Of a stretch of DNA of 64,000 nt, positions 10,831-32,257 are shown piece after piece. A program made the translations under genes and the position numbers. Source of the stretch: Pyrinomonadaceae bacterium (GTDB lineage: Bacteria; Acidobacteriota; Blastocatellia; Pyrinomonadales; Pyrinomonadaceae); the NCBI GenBank assembly GCA_036277115.1, contig DASUNM010000023.1, positions 1,364,001 through 1,428,000 of the forward strand, in the 5' to 3' direction. Position 1 is the first letter of the stretch, and each line of letters opens with the position of its first letter. The notes below the pieces were generated by a model that did no database searches, was not told where the DNA came from, and saw only the letters and a program-made list of their open reading frames with translations.

Positions 10831-10980
10831 CTCTGCGTGTCTTTGCGCCTTGGCCCTGTCAGAACCACCTGCGGTAGCGGGTGGTTGAACTTCCGACAAG
10901 CATCCGCAGAAGGTAAGGTCACCCGCGCTACCGCAGGCGGTTCCGACCCAGACGCAAAGTCGCAAAGGATCGCAAAGAAA
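10831..10980. repeat. Nested repeats: 90-bp two-armed family A element inside a CTTTGCG-type element
   Basis: Inner element 10858-10947: arms GTCAGAACCACC... and ...GCGGTTCCGAC carry the hairpin core TGCGGTAGCG in opposite orientation (family A; other copies at 37980, 44645 and 56509). It is flanked on the left by CTGCGTGTCTTTGCGCC and on the right by GACGCAAAGTCGCAAAGG. These are the two arms of the element also seen uninterrupted at 61321, so family A appears to have inserted into it. Confidence 0.75.
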
Positions 10981-23615: not shown

Positions 23616-26267
23616 TTAGTTTCCGCTGGAGTTGAGGGCGTTCCAGATGAACGGAAACGTGCCCCACGTTTGGCCCCGGTGCTGTGGCCTAAACGCGAAG
23701 AGGACGACGCGACCTTTACCCGTCCGGACTTCGGCGAGGGCAATCTTGTCTTTGATCTTGTCTTCACCCAGGAGCCAGCCTGAACGCAGAATATTCTCTT
23801 TCGCGTAGCGCGCGACGACTTCTACGCGGTCGCGGTCTGTCGCTTCAAACGCCGAACTGTTGACGAAGTACGCGTCGGTGTCTTCCAACATTGTGCGGGC
23901 AATCGAATACCTGATGTCCACGTTCAGGCGAAGAATCGAACCTGGACAGTAGAATTCTGATGACCTCAAGCCTTCAAGCACGTTTTTCAATGGAAGATTC
24001 CAACGGCGAATTAACTGTCCGCACGATCCGTCAAAGCAAATCAACGTGCCGCCGTCTTCGACGAAGCGCGCAAGATTCCTGTAGCCGGCGTCGCTGATGC
24101 CTCGCGCAGAGACGGCCTCGGCATCCATATCAGCGGTTGGACGCGGCTCTGAGGGCAGAACGATCGCGTCGAATTTGGCTCGTGGATTCTCAGTGTTGAA
24201 AGCGGTTTCGCTCAACGACTGAAACGGCACATTGAACGTGTCGAAGACGTAACGGGTCCAACCTTCGTCCATGTTTCCGGCGCGTGAGTTTTTATAGATG
24301 CCGATTCGAATTCCCGATTTGACGGGATTGGTAATCGGAGATTTTTCGCTGGTCCAAAGCGGCAACGCAAGGTCACGACGGACGTCGTTTTCAGATTTGA
24401 TCAGGGTCAAGCGGAGTTCGCTGGGCGGTTCGCGGATTGCCAGCACCGCGCTCGCTCGCAAGCCCATCATCATCGGCAACGTCCAACCGGCAACGTCATA
24501 TGGCCGCTCGGCTTCACCGGTTGGTGTGATTCGATCCGGATACACCTGCGGCTCAAACAATGCGAGCACGTTGCGCCGGTAGGGCTGATCGAGAAAGACC
24601 AAATAACTGCCGGCCGGCATTTCGTGAATCGTTTGATCTGAGACAACTGTTACGCCTAAGGGCGTCACCGTCGTCCGGCCGATCGTAACCGGCTCGAGTC
24701 GCTTGATCGCGTGCTCGCCGTGAAGTCCGTACAGCTCCTTCTCAAGCCGAAAAACTTCCACCCCCTGCTCGACCAGCGCGCCCACGAGCTTGGCTGTGTT
24801 TTCGTCTCGTCCCTGGCCGGGCCAAATGATGTACGCGAGAGGTTCGCCGGATGCTGGGCGCGCCAGATTCTCTTTTCCTAACTCATAAAAATTTCGGAGG
24901 TATCCGGCGCGATAGTTCGACGCCAGTGACAGAACCGAACGCGACGCGATCATCTCGATCTGCATGATGTCGCGTGGCCGCCACGTGCCGCCGGGCCAGG
25001 GATTCGGAAAATTGGTTGAGACTTCGAGGGCGCTGCGCATCCCGCGCGAGCTTGAGCGAGCCAGTTGTTCGCGGGTCACGTTTGACGGTGACATTAAGCG
25101 CGCGCTAGCCGCTTCAGTCAGAATGCCAATTGAGTTGTGATAGTAAGGTGCCGTACGAAATCCGCCGTGCCACCACGTGTCATAAAGCGCGTTCGTCAGA
25201 ATTCCTTTGAAGCCCGCCCCGGTAACATCAGCCGCCATCTTGTGTCCGATCAGCCCGACCTGCCTGAGCAGCAGCGGCGAAATGTGTGGATTTGGCGGGT
25301 CGTAAAACGGCGGCACAAAGAAACGTGAGCCGTTCGAGCCCTGCTGATGCACGTCGTAGACAATCTGCGGAAACCATTCTTTCCACAGCAGTCGCGTCAC
25401 GGCCTTCGTCTCTTTCAGATTGATCATGAACCAGTCGCGATTGTCGTCGTGTCCGGCGTAGTGGTGATAAAGCTCCGGCGGCACGGTTCCCTCCTGAGGC
25501 GTGCCGAGCGTTTTTCGATACCAGTTCGCAACGATGTCGATGCCGTCCGGATTTGGCGACGGGATCAGGATCAAGATCGTGTTTCGCAGAATCGAAAGAG
25601 TGTCCGCGTCGCCGGCGCTGGCCAGCTCGTAAGCAAGCTGCATCGACATCTGCGAGGCGACAATTTCAGTCGAATGAATCGAACCGGAAATAACGACGAT
25701 CGTCTTGCCTTCGATAACCAGCTGGTCGCGTTCTGCCGGACCGGCGACCTTGCGCGGATCGGCAAGTTTAGCCTGAATTGTTTTGTACTTTTCCAGATTG
25801 CGGATATTCTCAGGCGCGCTGATGAAGGCGACGAACATTGTGCGACCCAGGGTCGATTTTCCGATGGTCTGTAGCTGAACGCGGTCGCTGGCGCGGTCGA
25901 GCCGCGCGAAGTAGTCGCTGATCTGTTTCCAGTCGGCGATGGTGCGGTCGTCGCCGGGATTGAAACCGAGAATGGAACGAGGCGAAGGTACTGCACTCGC
26001 CGGGCTCTTGCGCTGGGCCTGAATGTCGTTGGTTAGGATCGATGCGAGCGCAATCAGAACGGCCAGCGCCGCAGGCGCGAGATGTTTATAGAACCGTACG
26101 CCAACAATCTTCGTGCGATTGAGTCGAGACGCGCCGCGCCTCGACTCAATCGCGGAACTCAAAGAGGTCAGCGGTACTTCTAGAAACATTTCGCCGCTCG
26201 CGCGGCTTTCCGTCTCGTTGAATGCATTCATTGACTTGGGTTGATAGCCTTTATGGTAACGACGCAT
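23616..26267 (-). CDS. Secreted M14-family zinc carboxypeptidase with repeat-derived N-terminus
   Basis: 883 residues. The M14 domain (about 110-420) shows the zinc ligands HSTE in VVISGSIHSTEIVAS and the later His in VYDVHQQGSNGSRFF, plus the catalytic Glu in GILTEAASARL. The C-terminal 250 residues look like a class I glutamine-amidotransferase-like (non-catalytic) fold ending VVLFAFRPQHRGQTWGTFPF. The hydrophobic signal core (APAALAVLIALASIL) only begins about 66 residues in. The DNA before it, 26066-26206, is a complete two-armed repeat element. Start options: ATG at 26267 (GAGGAA about 8 bases upstream), 26231, or 26189 inside the repeat. It is divergent from plsC. Confidence 0.85.
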   Translation of the reverse strand: MRRYHKGYQPKSMNAFNETESRASGEMFLEVPLTSLSSAIESRRGASRLNRTKIVGVRFYKHLAPAALAVLIALASILTNDIQAQRKSPASAVPSPRSILGFNPGDDRTIADWKQISDYFARLDRASDRVQLQTIGKSTLGRTMFVAFISAPENIRNLEKYKTIQAKLADPRKVAGPAERDQLVIEGKTIVVISGSIHSTEIVASQMSMQLAYELASAGDADTLSILRNTILILIPSPNPDGIDIVANWYRKTLGTPQEGTVPPELYHHYAGHDDNRDWFMINLKETKAVTRLLWKEWFPQIVYDVHQQGSNGSRFFVPPFYDPPNPHISPLLLRQVGLIGHKMAADVTGAGFKGILTNALYDTWWHGGFRTAPYYHNSIGILTEAASARLMSPSNVTREQLARSSSRGMRSALEVSTNFPNPWPGGTWRPRDIMQIEMIASRSVLSLASNYRAGYLRNFYELGKENLARPASGEPLAYIIWPGQGRDENTAKLVGALVEQGVEVFRLEKELYGLHGEHAIKRLEPVTIGRTTVTPLGVTVVSDQTIHEMPAGSYLVFLDQPYRRNVLALFEPQVYPDRITPTGEAERPYDVAGWTLPMMMGLRASAVLAIREPPSELRLTLIKSENDVRRDLALPLWTSEKSPITNPVKSGIRIGIYKNSRAGNMDEGWTRYVFDTFNVPFQSLSETAFNTENPRAKFDAIVLPSEPRPTADMDAEAVSARGISDAGYRNLARFVEDGGTLICFDGSCGQLIRRWNLPLKNVLEGLRSSEFYCPGSILRLNVDIRYSIARTMLEDTDAYFVNSSAFEATDRDRVEVVARYAKENILRSGWLLGEDKIKDKIALAEVRTGKGRVVLFAFRPQHRGQTWGTFPFIWNALNSSGN
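26066..26206. repeat. Two-armed palindromic repeat (family F) inside the M14 peptidase 5' coding region
   Basis: Left arm: hairpin GCGCC-GCA-GGCGC then GAGATGTTTATAGAACC. Right arm: TCTAGAAACATTTCGCC then GCTCGCGCGGC. Centre: a perfect 14-bp stem GCGATTGAGTCGAG / CTCGACTCAATCGC (26115-26153). The same arms and layout, with a different core, recur at 31499-31646. Confidence 0.8.
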
Positions 26268-26339
26268 TCGCGTGTTTCCTCGGAAGAATCCATCTCGCAG
26301 AACGCGGCGAAGTCTAGCACAACCCGCGGTCCACGAATC

Positions 26340-28506: not shown

Positions 28507-31434
28507 ATGACCCACGAAGCCATTGAAGTTCGCGGCGCCCGCGTAAACAACCTTAAAAACATCTCGTTTTCGATCCCGATTAACCAGCTGACGGTAGTCA
28601 CGGGCGTCAGCGGGTCAGGCAAATCCTCCCTGGCGTTCGACACGATTTACGCCGAGGGGCAACGCCGTTATGTGGAGTCGCTCTCGGCTTATGCGCGCCA
28701 GTTTCTCGAGCGGATGGACAAGCCGGACGTGGATGAAGTCCGCGGCATTGCGCCGGCCATCGCTATTCGGCAAAAGAACTCAACGCGGAATCCACGTTCG
28801 ACGGTAGGGACGCAGACTGAGATTTACGACTACCTGCGACTTTTGTTCGCGCGTGTTGGGACGACAATTTGCCGCGTGTGCGGACGCGAAGTCCATCGCG
28901 ACTCGCCCGAATCAGCAGCCGGCGAAACACTCGCGCAACTGACGGAAGGCTCACGGTTCCACGTTTTGTTTCCGGCGGACGCGGGATTGTCCGTTGAGCT
29001 GAACGGCAATGGCGCGAAACCTCCCACGGTAAAACGAGGAACGAACGGTTCGAAGCCAAAACTCACTCGTCAGATGGTCACAGCGCACGTGATGAGTCTG
29101 ATGCAGCGCGGCTTCACGCGCCTGATGCATGAAGGTAAGCAGATCGACTTAGCGTCACCGGATGATTACAAACTCGATCACTTCGAGAATGTTTACGTGC
29201 TGGTGGATCGACTGGCGGCGCGCGAGGACGTTCGCCAGCGGCTGGTTGATTCGCTGGAGACTTGCTTTCGCGAGGGTCATGGCCAGGCAATGATTGAGTT
29301 GGCAGAAGGTACGCAGGCAGGTACGCACGCCTCCGGCGTGCTCTCTGATAAGCGTGCCGGAGGCACACGTACCGCTACCCGGCTTCGCTTCTCGGAAGGT
29401 TTCGAATGCAAATACGATCGTATCGCCTACCCGACTCCTGAGCCGCGGTTGTTCAGCTTTAACAATCCGTTTGGCGCGTGCCCTACGTGCCAGGGCTTTG
29501 GCAATACGATCGGCCTCGATCTCGATCTCGTGATTCCCAATCCCGGCCTCACGCTCGCCGAAGGCGCGATTGAGCCGTGGACGAAGCCTCAATACGAATG
29601 GTTTACGAAAGAGCTGCGTCACTTCTGTAAGTCGGAACGCATTCCGACGAACGTCGCGTTTAATCAACTAACTCGCCCACAACGGAACGCCATCATCAAC
29701 GGCAAAGGCGACTGGGAAGGCGTGCGCGGATTTTTTGATTGGCTGGAAACGAAGAAATATAAGCTGCACGTGCGCGTCTTTCTTTCGAAGTATCGTGGTT
29801 ATACGGTTTGCCCGGATTGTGAAGGCGGACGGCTGCGGCAGGAAGCGCGTGACGTGCGTGTCGGAGCACGGACTTTGCCCGAGGTTTGCACGCTTTCGAT
29901 CAAAGATGCGTCGGCATTCTTTGAAGCACTCGAACTTCCAGATGAACAGTCGGCCGTATCCGATCGTGTTTTGTTTGAGATTCGCCGGCGGCTCAAGTTT
30001 CTGGTCGATGTCGGTTTGGATTACCTGACGCTGAATCGACTCGCTTCAACATTGTCGGGCGGCGAAGCGCAGCGAATCCAATTGGCGACGAATTTGGGCT
30101 CGTCTCTCGTCGGCGCGTTGTATGTACTCGACGAGCCGTCGATCGGTCTGCATCCGCGCGACAACGATCGTCTGATTCGGCTGCTTCACAATCTGCGCGA
30201 TATCGGCAACACCGTGCTGGTGGTGGAGCACGACGAAGAGATGATGCGCTCAGCCGATCACCTGCTCGATATTGGTCCGGCGGCGGGAGAACTGGGCGGG
30301 CACTTGATCTACGAAGGGGATTTCGCCGGTCTGATGGAAAGTCCGCAGTCGCTGACGGCGCGTTATCTTCGCGGCGATGCGGAAATCAAAGAACCCAAAC
30401 ACCGGCGGCCGCTTAAAGTAAAGCAACTGAATGTTCGCGGCGCAAGCGAACACAATCTGAAGAACATCAAGGTCGACATTCCCCTCGACATGCTGGTGTG
30501 CATCACCGGCGTCAGCGGGTCGGGCAAATCGACCCTCGTGCACGATTGCATCTATGCCGGGCTGAAAAAGCAGCGCGGCGATTGGCAGGGCCACGTCGGC
30601 GCATTTCACAAGCTTGAGGGCGGGCAATACATCGAGGAAGTGATTCTCGTAGATCAATCTCCGATTGGCCGCACGCCGCGTTCGAATCCGGTCACTTACA
30701 TTAAGGTCTATGACGCGATCCGCGAGACATTCGCGAACACCCGCGAGGCGCAAGCGCGCGGGCTTGAGCCGTCGCACTTCTCGTTCAACGTTCCCGGCGG
30801 CCGTTGCGAAGTTTGTCAGGGCGACGGCACTGTCACCGTCGAGATGCAGTTCCTCGCCGACGTTGAACTCGTCTGCGAAGAATGCAAAGGCACGCGCTTC
30901 AAGCAGCAGGTTCTCGATGTGCGCTATCGCGGCAAGAACATTCACGAAGTGCTGAATCTGACTGTCCGCGAAGCGATTGCTTTTTTCCGCGACGTCACGA
31001 AGATTACGAACCGCCTGCGTGTGCTTGATGAGGTAGGCCTGGGTTATTTGCGACTCGGTCAATCAGCGACCACTTTGTCCGGCGGTGAGGCTCAGCGCGT
31101 GAAACTCGCGGCGCATCTTTCGAAACGCGCCGGCGCGCGGGCGCTTTATATCTTTGATGAACCGACCACCGGTCTTCACTTCGACGACATCAACAAACTG
31201 TTGACAGCGTTTCGAGCGCTAATCGAAGCCGGCGGCTCGCTGCTCGTCATCGAACACAATCTCGACGTGATCAAGACGGCTGACTACATCATTGATTTGG
31301 GACCGGAAGGTGGCGAAGCGGGTGGTCACGTCGTGGCCACGGGAACGCCGGAACAGATCATGAAGGCGAAGGGTTCGCATACCGGTAGATATTTGAAGGC
31401 TCATCTCACGAAATCGAATGGTCATGGGAAGTAA
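28507..31434 (+). CDS. uvrA: Excinuclease ABC subunit A, with an in-frame repeat insertion
   Basis: A 975-residue damage-recognition ATPase of nucleotide excision repair. Two ABC modules: Walker [15 protein letters not shown] and [14 protein letters not shown], signature [12 protein letters not shown] and [12 protein letters not shown], Walker [16 protein letters not shown] and [15 protein letters not shown]. The second zinc finger is complete (CEVCQGDG...CEECKGTRF). In the first finger one Cys is replaced (FECKYD before ACPTCQGFG). Residues about 272-289 are encoded exactly by a 54-bp two-armed repeat (29320-29373). A second spacer (about 160-190) is rich in Gly/Asn/Lys. I start at the ATG at 28507 ([17 protein letters not shown]), which matches the family. 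Confidence 0.97.
29320..29373. repeat. Two-armed palindromic repeat (family B) in frame inside uvrA
   Basis: Arms GGTACGCACGCCTCCGGC and GCCGGAGGCACACGTACC lie in opposite orientation around CTCTCTGATAAG. Length is exactly 54 bases and it starts on a codon boundary, adding 18 residues. Family members lie at 50609 and 57288, both intergenic. Confidence 0.88.
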
Positions 31435-31708
31435 GCAATGGTCACCGGCTCTGATGCGCTTCAGTGCGACGCGATTTAGTAATCAGCACTCAGGTCATCG
31501 CTCCGTCAGGAGCGAGATGTTTATAGAACCCCATTTCCCAAACAACGATTAAGCTCCGTCAGGAGCGACATAACATGTCGCTCCTGACGGAGCTTGGAAT
31601 TCTCTAAGGACCTCCTGGCTATAAACATTTCGCCCCTGACGGGGCGATTAGTTCCGCGCCAGGAATCCGATTGGCCGTCCCCAGCGAGAGATGGACGCAG
31701 CCAGCCAA
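31435..31708. repeat. Intergenic region holding a family F two-armed repeat (31499-31646)
   Basis: Left arm: CGCTCC-GTCA-GGAGCG then AGATGTTTATAGAACC. Centre: a perfect 21-bp palindrome at 31551-31595 with loop AAC. Right arm: CTATAAACATTT then CGCCCC-TGAC-GGGGCG. The two outer stems differ by a T-A to C-G compensated pair. No gene is seen. The long central stem could end uvrA transcription, although no T-run follows. Confidence 0.85.
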
Positions 31709-32257
31709 CTACTCAAAGCTGGCGAGGGCCTCTTGCTCGCTCTTGAACGTTATCGACGAAATAAGAACTCCTCCAACCGTTGATGTTGATTCGGATCTCC
31801 AGGCCTGCTCCAATTGCGCTTGCACTTTGCTTGAGGGGCTACACAGTTTCAACTGGCTTCCGTCTTTATGAACTGACCCCAACGTGGAAACCATCTGTTC
31901 GGCCTCGCTCGCGTCAATCGAACTGACTTTCGCAAGATTCAAAAGAATCTTCTTGTCACCGTTCCTGACCTTTCGACTAATAGCGTTGCGCAACACAGCG
32001 CCGCCCTCTCGCGAACTAATCGTGCCAGCCAAATCGAGAATTACTATGTCTCGCACTCGCCGCTCCGAGATTCTCAAATCGGGAGGGCGTTGCGGGGGCG
32101 GGTTCCTCGGCGGTGGGTTTCGGATCGGCGGCGGGAGTTTTCGCATCGGCGGCAATTTGCCCGTGCCGCCCTGACCGAGAGCGAGCAGGCAGAAGGCGGT
32201 AGGCAGTAAGCAGCCCGCCAGGAGAATTCGCATTTGAAGCTTGCCGATTCGCATCAC
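31709..32257 (-). CDS. Secreted STAS-domain protein
   Basis: 182 residues. A signal-like N-terminus (RILLAGCLLPTAFCLLALGQ) is followed by a Pro/Arg/Asn-rich segment (about 35-60). A STAS domain follows: DLRISERRVRDIVILDLAGTISSREGGAVLRNAI, KILLNLAKVSSIDASEAEQMV, and GSQLKLCSPSSKVQAQLEQA. STAS proteins of the anti-anti-sigma type are normally cytoplasmic. Export would be odd, unless the N-terminus is only an anchor or the start lies further in. The phosphorylatable Ser position reads DAS. The signal core is encoded by a heptamer array. It directly follows the kinase gene upstream with 3 bases between, so the two are an operon. Confidence 0.78.
   Translation of the reverse strand: MMRIGKLQMRILLAGCLLPTAFCLLALGQGGTGKLPPMRKLPPPIRNPPPRNPPPQRPPDLRISERRVRDIVILDLAGTISSREGGAVLRNAISRKVRNGDKKILLNLAKVSSIDASEAEQMVSTLGSVHKDGSQLKLCSPSSKVQAQLEQAWRSESTSTVGGVLISSITFKSEQEALASFE
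32185..32212. repeat. Degenerate 7-bp-period array inside the STAS gene
   Basis: GCAGGCA, GAAGGCG, GTAGGCA, GTAAGCA on the plus strand. On the minus strand this encodes CLLPTAFCLL, the core of the predicted signal peptide. Confidence 0.75.

Follow-up and report, generated by a model that had tools for sequence, protein, structure and literature searches.

The 5' end of an M14-family zinc carboxypeptidase-like gene from a Pyrinomonadaceae bacterium contains a complete copy of a palindromic repeat, termed family F in the following. Very probably, this non-autonomous, REP/BIME-like repeat was inserted in frame between the n-region and the hydrophobic core of the encoded signal peptide, with the original start codon being kept. 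Palindromic elements residing in frame within protein genes are best known from Rickettsia; the acidobacterial genus investigated here shows the process with an intact comparative record, in which one site occurs with its element inherited, half lost or absent, or with a different one in its place. Because the element appears to be read through in frame and unrelated hairpins have settled at the same place in sister species, palindromic repeats seem to be converted into protein at tolerant spots. In consequence, two old questions become testable: how selfish repeats can be converted harmlessly to protein, and whether the pairing of palindromes is kept via selection or via replication errors that re-match their arms. 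All coordinates refer to the window, i.e. the whole analysed stretch of 64,000 nucleotides; the compared genomes are designated G000 (the present one) to G006.

Anatomy of the element in the M14 gene

The genome is of Pyrinomonadaceae type, with soil subdivision-4 MAGs as its nearest named relatives and Pyrinomonadaceae next to these. The product of the gene matched Pfam PF00246 (E 2.9e-17), and the gene was matched in all 80 family genomes searched. The features of its 5' region and the sister copy of the element are as follows:

23616..26267, minus strand: M14-family zinc carboxypeptidase-like gene, 883 codons counted from the conserved start
26311..26321, minus strand: promoter-like motif TGTGCTAGACT, extended -10-like, 43 nt upstream of the start ATG
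26265..26267, minus strand: conserved ATG, putative original start (N-termini MRRY / MHRR / MHLL / MYRS / MHVS)
26066..26206, minus strand: complete F element within the coding sequence, codons 21-68 (covariance model: 98.5 bits, E 8.8e-24)
26193..26206, minus strand: outer hairpin on the start-codon side, GCCGCGCGAGCGGC, read from the sequence
26180..26189, minus strand: box B, ATGTTTCTAG on the gene strand, containing the non-conserved ATG 26187-26189
26115..26153, minus strand: central palindrome, 19-nt arms with 1-nt loop, covarying between orthologs
26082..26091, minus strand: box A, CTATAAACAT on the gene strand, codes for YKH
26066..26078, minus strand: outer hairpin on the core side, GCGCCTGCGGCGC, codes for the start of the hydrophobic core (APAA); the half-element kept in G005
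26034..26081, minus strand: predicted signal-peptide hydrophobic core LAPAALAVLIALASIL, from the translation
near 26016, minus strand: AQ cleavage-like site after the core, presumed cleavage
31497..31648, unstranded: sister F element (134.9 bits), intergenic between uvrA and the convergent next gene (31709-32257, minus strand)

The original prediction had placed a complete element with a central 14-bp palindrome on codons about 20-67 of the gene, and it agrees with the present analysis in these points: Both arms are exact (GATGTTTATAGAACC at 26081-26095, CTAGAAACATTTCGC at 26180-26194), the element including both outer hairpins covers codons 21-68, and the 19-nt arms of the centre (26115-26133 / 26135-26153; 95% complementary) enclose 14 perfect base pairs. 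With up to three mismatches allowed, the first arm motif occurred four times in the window (two of the four being exact) versus 0.66 expected occurrences. The sister copy, formerly delimited at 31499-31646, was found at 31497-31648 with, as predicted, a different centre: a REP-REP palindrome, which is not the palindrome present in the M14 element. The latter adds roughly 50 residues to the coding sequence and provides the first residues of the core; its gene-strand RNA is calculated to fold with −76.1 kcal/mol (z = −6.4 versus shuffles).

The start codon of the M14 gene

The ATG at 26267 was conserved across the family orthologs, whether the element was present or absent; in the outgroup orthologs, the same ATG is followed by a short n-region, a hydrophobic core and AQ. 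The promoter-like motif TGTGCTAGACT, or a variant thereof with no more than two mismatches, was located 43-69 nt 5' of this ATG in 15 of the 17 orthologs scanned, again with or without the element, while the stretches scanned in G005 and G002 (2/17) yielded no motif of this type. Comparison of these sequences supports ATG 26267 as the original start, which would still be in use despite the element.

The original prediction had left open whether the gene gained a new start from the element or the element split the signal peptide from its original start. The in-element ATG 26189 is indeed present (codon 27), although about 35 residues separate it from the core, which it had been stated to precede immediately. 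Moreover, it reads ATA in G004 and G006, the two other readable carrier species, and in G006 the first ATG, GTG or TTG to follow the conserved start is a TTG that already belongs to the core. Because of these differences and the conservation of the upstream ATG regardless of the element, a new start supplied by the latter was rejected; the second option is supported, with the addition that the split would be in frame and the original start would still be serving.

The same observations bear on the alternative that the element is located in a 5' untranslated leader, with translation starting at or after it (at ATG 26189 or at a TTG/GTG) and with an accidental open frame upstream. Such an arrangement has a precedent, as Di Nocera et al. 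(PMC3733652) cautioned that numerous REPs listed as "intragenic" at N-termini lie in misannotated leaders, and candidate codons do exist: in G000, codons 13 and 27 are ATG and codon 36 is TTG, and in-frame ATG/GTG/TTG codons other than the conserved start occur in or near the element in both G000 and G004. Nevertheless, a leader position is unlikely in view of the ATA codons in G004 and G006, the scarcity of starts in G006, the start conserved in element-free orthologs, and a reading frame and synonymous excess that hold across the element (see below). A GTCAGTACC..GCGGTAGCG repeat was observed between the promoter region and the M14 coding start in G003 and G005 (L019, L020).

Reading frame and substitution pattern across the element

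In G000, G004 and G006, the F element is situated in frame between start and core; the distance from the ATG to the element varies among the three species with the frame being kept. As only 25 of 300 frames among F elements were stop-free, an open frame in three diverged species goes beyond chance. The pairwise differences within the element at codon positions 1/2/3 amounted to 12/9/19, 14/10/19 and 8/6/15, and pS (.45/.47/.35) exceeded pN (.23/.24/.14) in the real frame, whereas pS was not above pN in the two other frames. These counts comprise about 47 codons of three sequences (G003, half masked by N at the site, was left out), the hairpin structure also constraining change; owing to this small sample and the hairpin's own constraint, translation is therefore supported rather than proven. 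Judged from the third-position excess, a pS of about twice pN and the frame-preserving indels, the element is probably translated as protein. The original prediction had regarded an N-terminal protein sequence kept among relatives over synonymous change as evidence against its proposal: The congeners do keep it, but the reason is a shared, inherited element and not the absence of an element.

The preferred explanation reads as follows: The F element would be a non-autonomous palindromic repeat of REP/BIME-like type, the insertion of which in an ancestor within the genus would have separated the hydrophobic core from the n-region, a short and positively charged segment. Since it would have landed in frame and without stops, the promoter, the ribosome site and the start codon of the gene would have stayed as they were; in the pre-protein, the core would be preceded by about 50 additional residues, and the core-side hairpin would have turned into the first core residues. 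The extension, if translated, is likely to be cleaved off. As the n-region leaves with the signal peptide, the site would be permissive, and at least three other palindromic families would for this reason use the same interval in other lineages.

Occupation of the same site in other lineages

The F element at the M14 site is common to four congeners (G000, G003, G004 and G006), the present genome among them. In G005, solely the core-side hairpin is present, as codons in NYNYLAPTALV, the rest of F having been lost or never having been there. The same interval is occupied in frame by a CTCTGCG palindrome in G001, where one match to the CTCTGCG pattern (C8:138257) directly precedes the M14 match, and in G002 by a palindrome of the type AGAACC..GCGGTAGCG, which has 29-nt arms and a pattern counted 250+239 times in that genome. 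Two more distant relatives (L077/L259 and L230) contain an in-frame GTGGTCAGTGGTCAG palindrome in the M14 signal peptide that is read SVVSGQWSVVS. The repeats at the site in other lineages are unrelated families, and at least two of them, apart from the GTGGTCAG repeat, are multicopy in their own genomes. Most family orthologs possess a plain short signal peptide. The flanks of F were too diverged for a target duplication to be read, and no clean empty site was recognised.

It might be argued from the presence of F at the same site in four congeners that the palindromes are an ancient structured part of the gene and not insertions. This is, however, hardly credible given the plain signal peptides of most family orthologs, the unrelated repeats in different lineages with at least two multicopy families among them, and the distant outgroups, which lack this palindrome at the M14 site.

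Distribution and structure of family F

Family F is a new repeat family in Acidobacteriota and seems to be part of a recurrent colonisation of permissive protein sites. A covariance model built from 13 copies showed F to be far above chance expectation, with 111 two-strand matches (best E 1e-33) in the 4.85-Mb genome, corresponding to about 57 places, and with 51-146 matches per congener; the distribution is patchy, comprising 27 of 46 family genomes and 19 of 29 genera. The consensus consists of an outer hairpin (about GCTCCGTAGGAGC), the box RATGTTTATAG, a spacer and an inner palindrome, followed by the mirror image; the inner palindrome is often formed by two further copies of the outer hairpin unit in head-to-head arrangement. 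Inner palindromes with arms of at least 10 were found in 27 of 50 F copies versus 1 of 500 shuffles.

The genomic context was analysed for 57 stretches with a simple codon-usage gene caller, by which small genes may be missed: 55 of the 57 places were intergenic or overlapped a gene end by no more than 24 bp, with flanking genes in tandem (41), convergent (7) or divergent (6) orientation. The only two places wholly inside genes were those in the M14 and a molybdopterin oxidoreductase gene. For the loci tried, a search of Rfam with E values of up to 1 gave no match to the element (the window yielded tRNAs only), and the literature search for the F box sequence retrieved no paper.

Conservation of base pairing

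Among the three M14 orthologs, six of the 19 central pairs of the element were changed on both sides with pairing kept (columns 54/92, 57/89, 59/87, 63/83, 69/77 and 72/74; in each of 59/87, 69/77 and 72/74 one species is unpaired). In the family alignment, 92% of the cells were paired compared with 36-48% when the partner was slid, and 182 cells were changed on both sides versus a shuffled mean of 51, a count that is biased by the alignment having been fitted to the model.

These six double changes at an orthologous site and the strong calculated fold would be in line with an element that is kept as RNA regulator in the translated region, tuning translation or mRNA stability, a role that is compatible with the in-frame insertion. 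We nonetheless consider it rather doubtful: Pairing also covaries over dozens of mostly intergenic copies, and in an unrelated gene, the orthologous element has remained palindromic at its centre with a sequence that is wholly different (see below), both of which fit a copying or mutational process; furthermore, the genes are intact in species without the element. The hairpin may be kept either by template switching during replication, which would re-match the arms, or by RNA selection, and since the mostly intergenic copies stay paired too, we think that the replication process is at least as likely.

Relation to known palindromic elements

The closest known kinds of elements are the Rickettsia palindromic elements (RPE) and the intragenic REPs. 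The former are palindromic repeats of ~150 bp in frame within unrelated protein genes, with the product apparently being tolerated (PMC10969869). F resembles them by its in-frame position within coding sequences (M14, molybdopterin oxidoreductase), but differs in its mainly intergenic location (55 of about 57 places), in its host, a soil acidobacterium instead of an intracellular pathogen, and in its ends: RPE repeats end in CGTC, which was present in 12 of 100 F element ends and formed no conserved column.

REPs are inverted hairpin units found mostly between co-directional genes, some of them being intragenic (PMC3733652). As in BIMEs, the hairpin units of F form an inverted array, are mostly extragenic and show covarying pairing; unlike REP/BIME, F is nested, its outer hairpins and conserved ATGTTTATAG boxes enclosing an inner palindrome, and the GTAG or CGTC tag of REPs has no conserved counterpart at its outer end (GTAG in 5 of 100 F element ends). 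With in-frame insertion present but a conserved GTAG/CGTC tag and, in the loci examined, a Y1 linkage lacking, F acts in the manner of an RPE but is not classified among them. Its shortness, non-autonomous nature, terminal inverted repeats and patchy distribution are shared with MITEs; a parent transposon with F ends was not seen in this genome, the near-exact box matches being situated in compact elements.

The genome contains nine Y1_Tnp matches. Near Y1/RAYT-like genes, F boxes and F-type hairpins were absent in the loci examined (one match at a contig end being covered without flanks) apart from one isolated one-mismatch box match. Mobilisation by an adjacent RAYT-type transposase was rejected, as essentially no F sequence occurred in the flanks examined of the nine Y1 matches. 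Presumably, F would be moved by a transposase acting in trans.

In-frame palindromes in uvrA and a molybdopterin oxidoreductase gene

Two other genes show the same phenomenon as M14. In the window, uvrA contains the following feature:

29320..29373, plus strand: palindromic repeat GGTACGCACGCCTCCGGCGTGC, in frame within uvrA, unlike F

At this site, after REGHGQA, the GGTACGCACGCCTCCGGCGTGC-type repeat is present in G000, G005 and G006 and an unrelated CCCTCTCCC/GGGAGAGGG-type palindrome in G002, G003 and G004, neither type being found in G001. In the molybdopterin oxidoreductase gene, a second F element (L144:2501-2629; C23:664307-664435 of the present genome) is in frame in G000 and G004, while G001, G005 and G006 are without F; its inner palindrome in G004 (L172) is wholly unlike in sequence to that of G000 at the same site. 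For REPs, insertions have been described in uvrA of Opitutus terrae, and two Xanthomonas carry, at nearly one and the same position of recB, REPs that differ from each other (PMC3733652). Tentatively, and with slightly more doubt than confidence, the n-region, the UvrA loop and the molybdopterin oxidoreductase loop may, in this lineage, be regarded as recurrent in-frame landing sites for unrelated palindromic families, which would then be doubly constrained by frame and pairing.

Repeats of the CAGAGGTCAG type adjoin the F element in the same loop of the molybdopterin oxidoreductase. Copies of a further repeat, GTCAGAACCACCTGCGGTAGCGG, are located in the window at 10858, 37980, 38040, 44645 and 56509, with ~175 pattern matches genome-wide.
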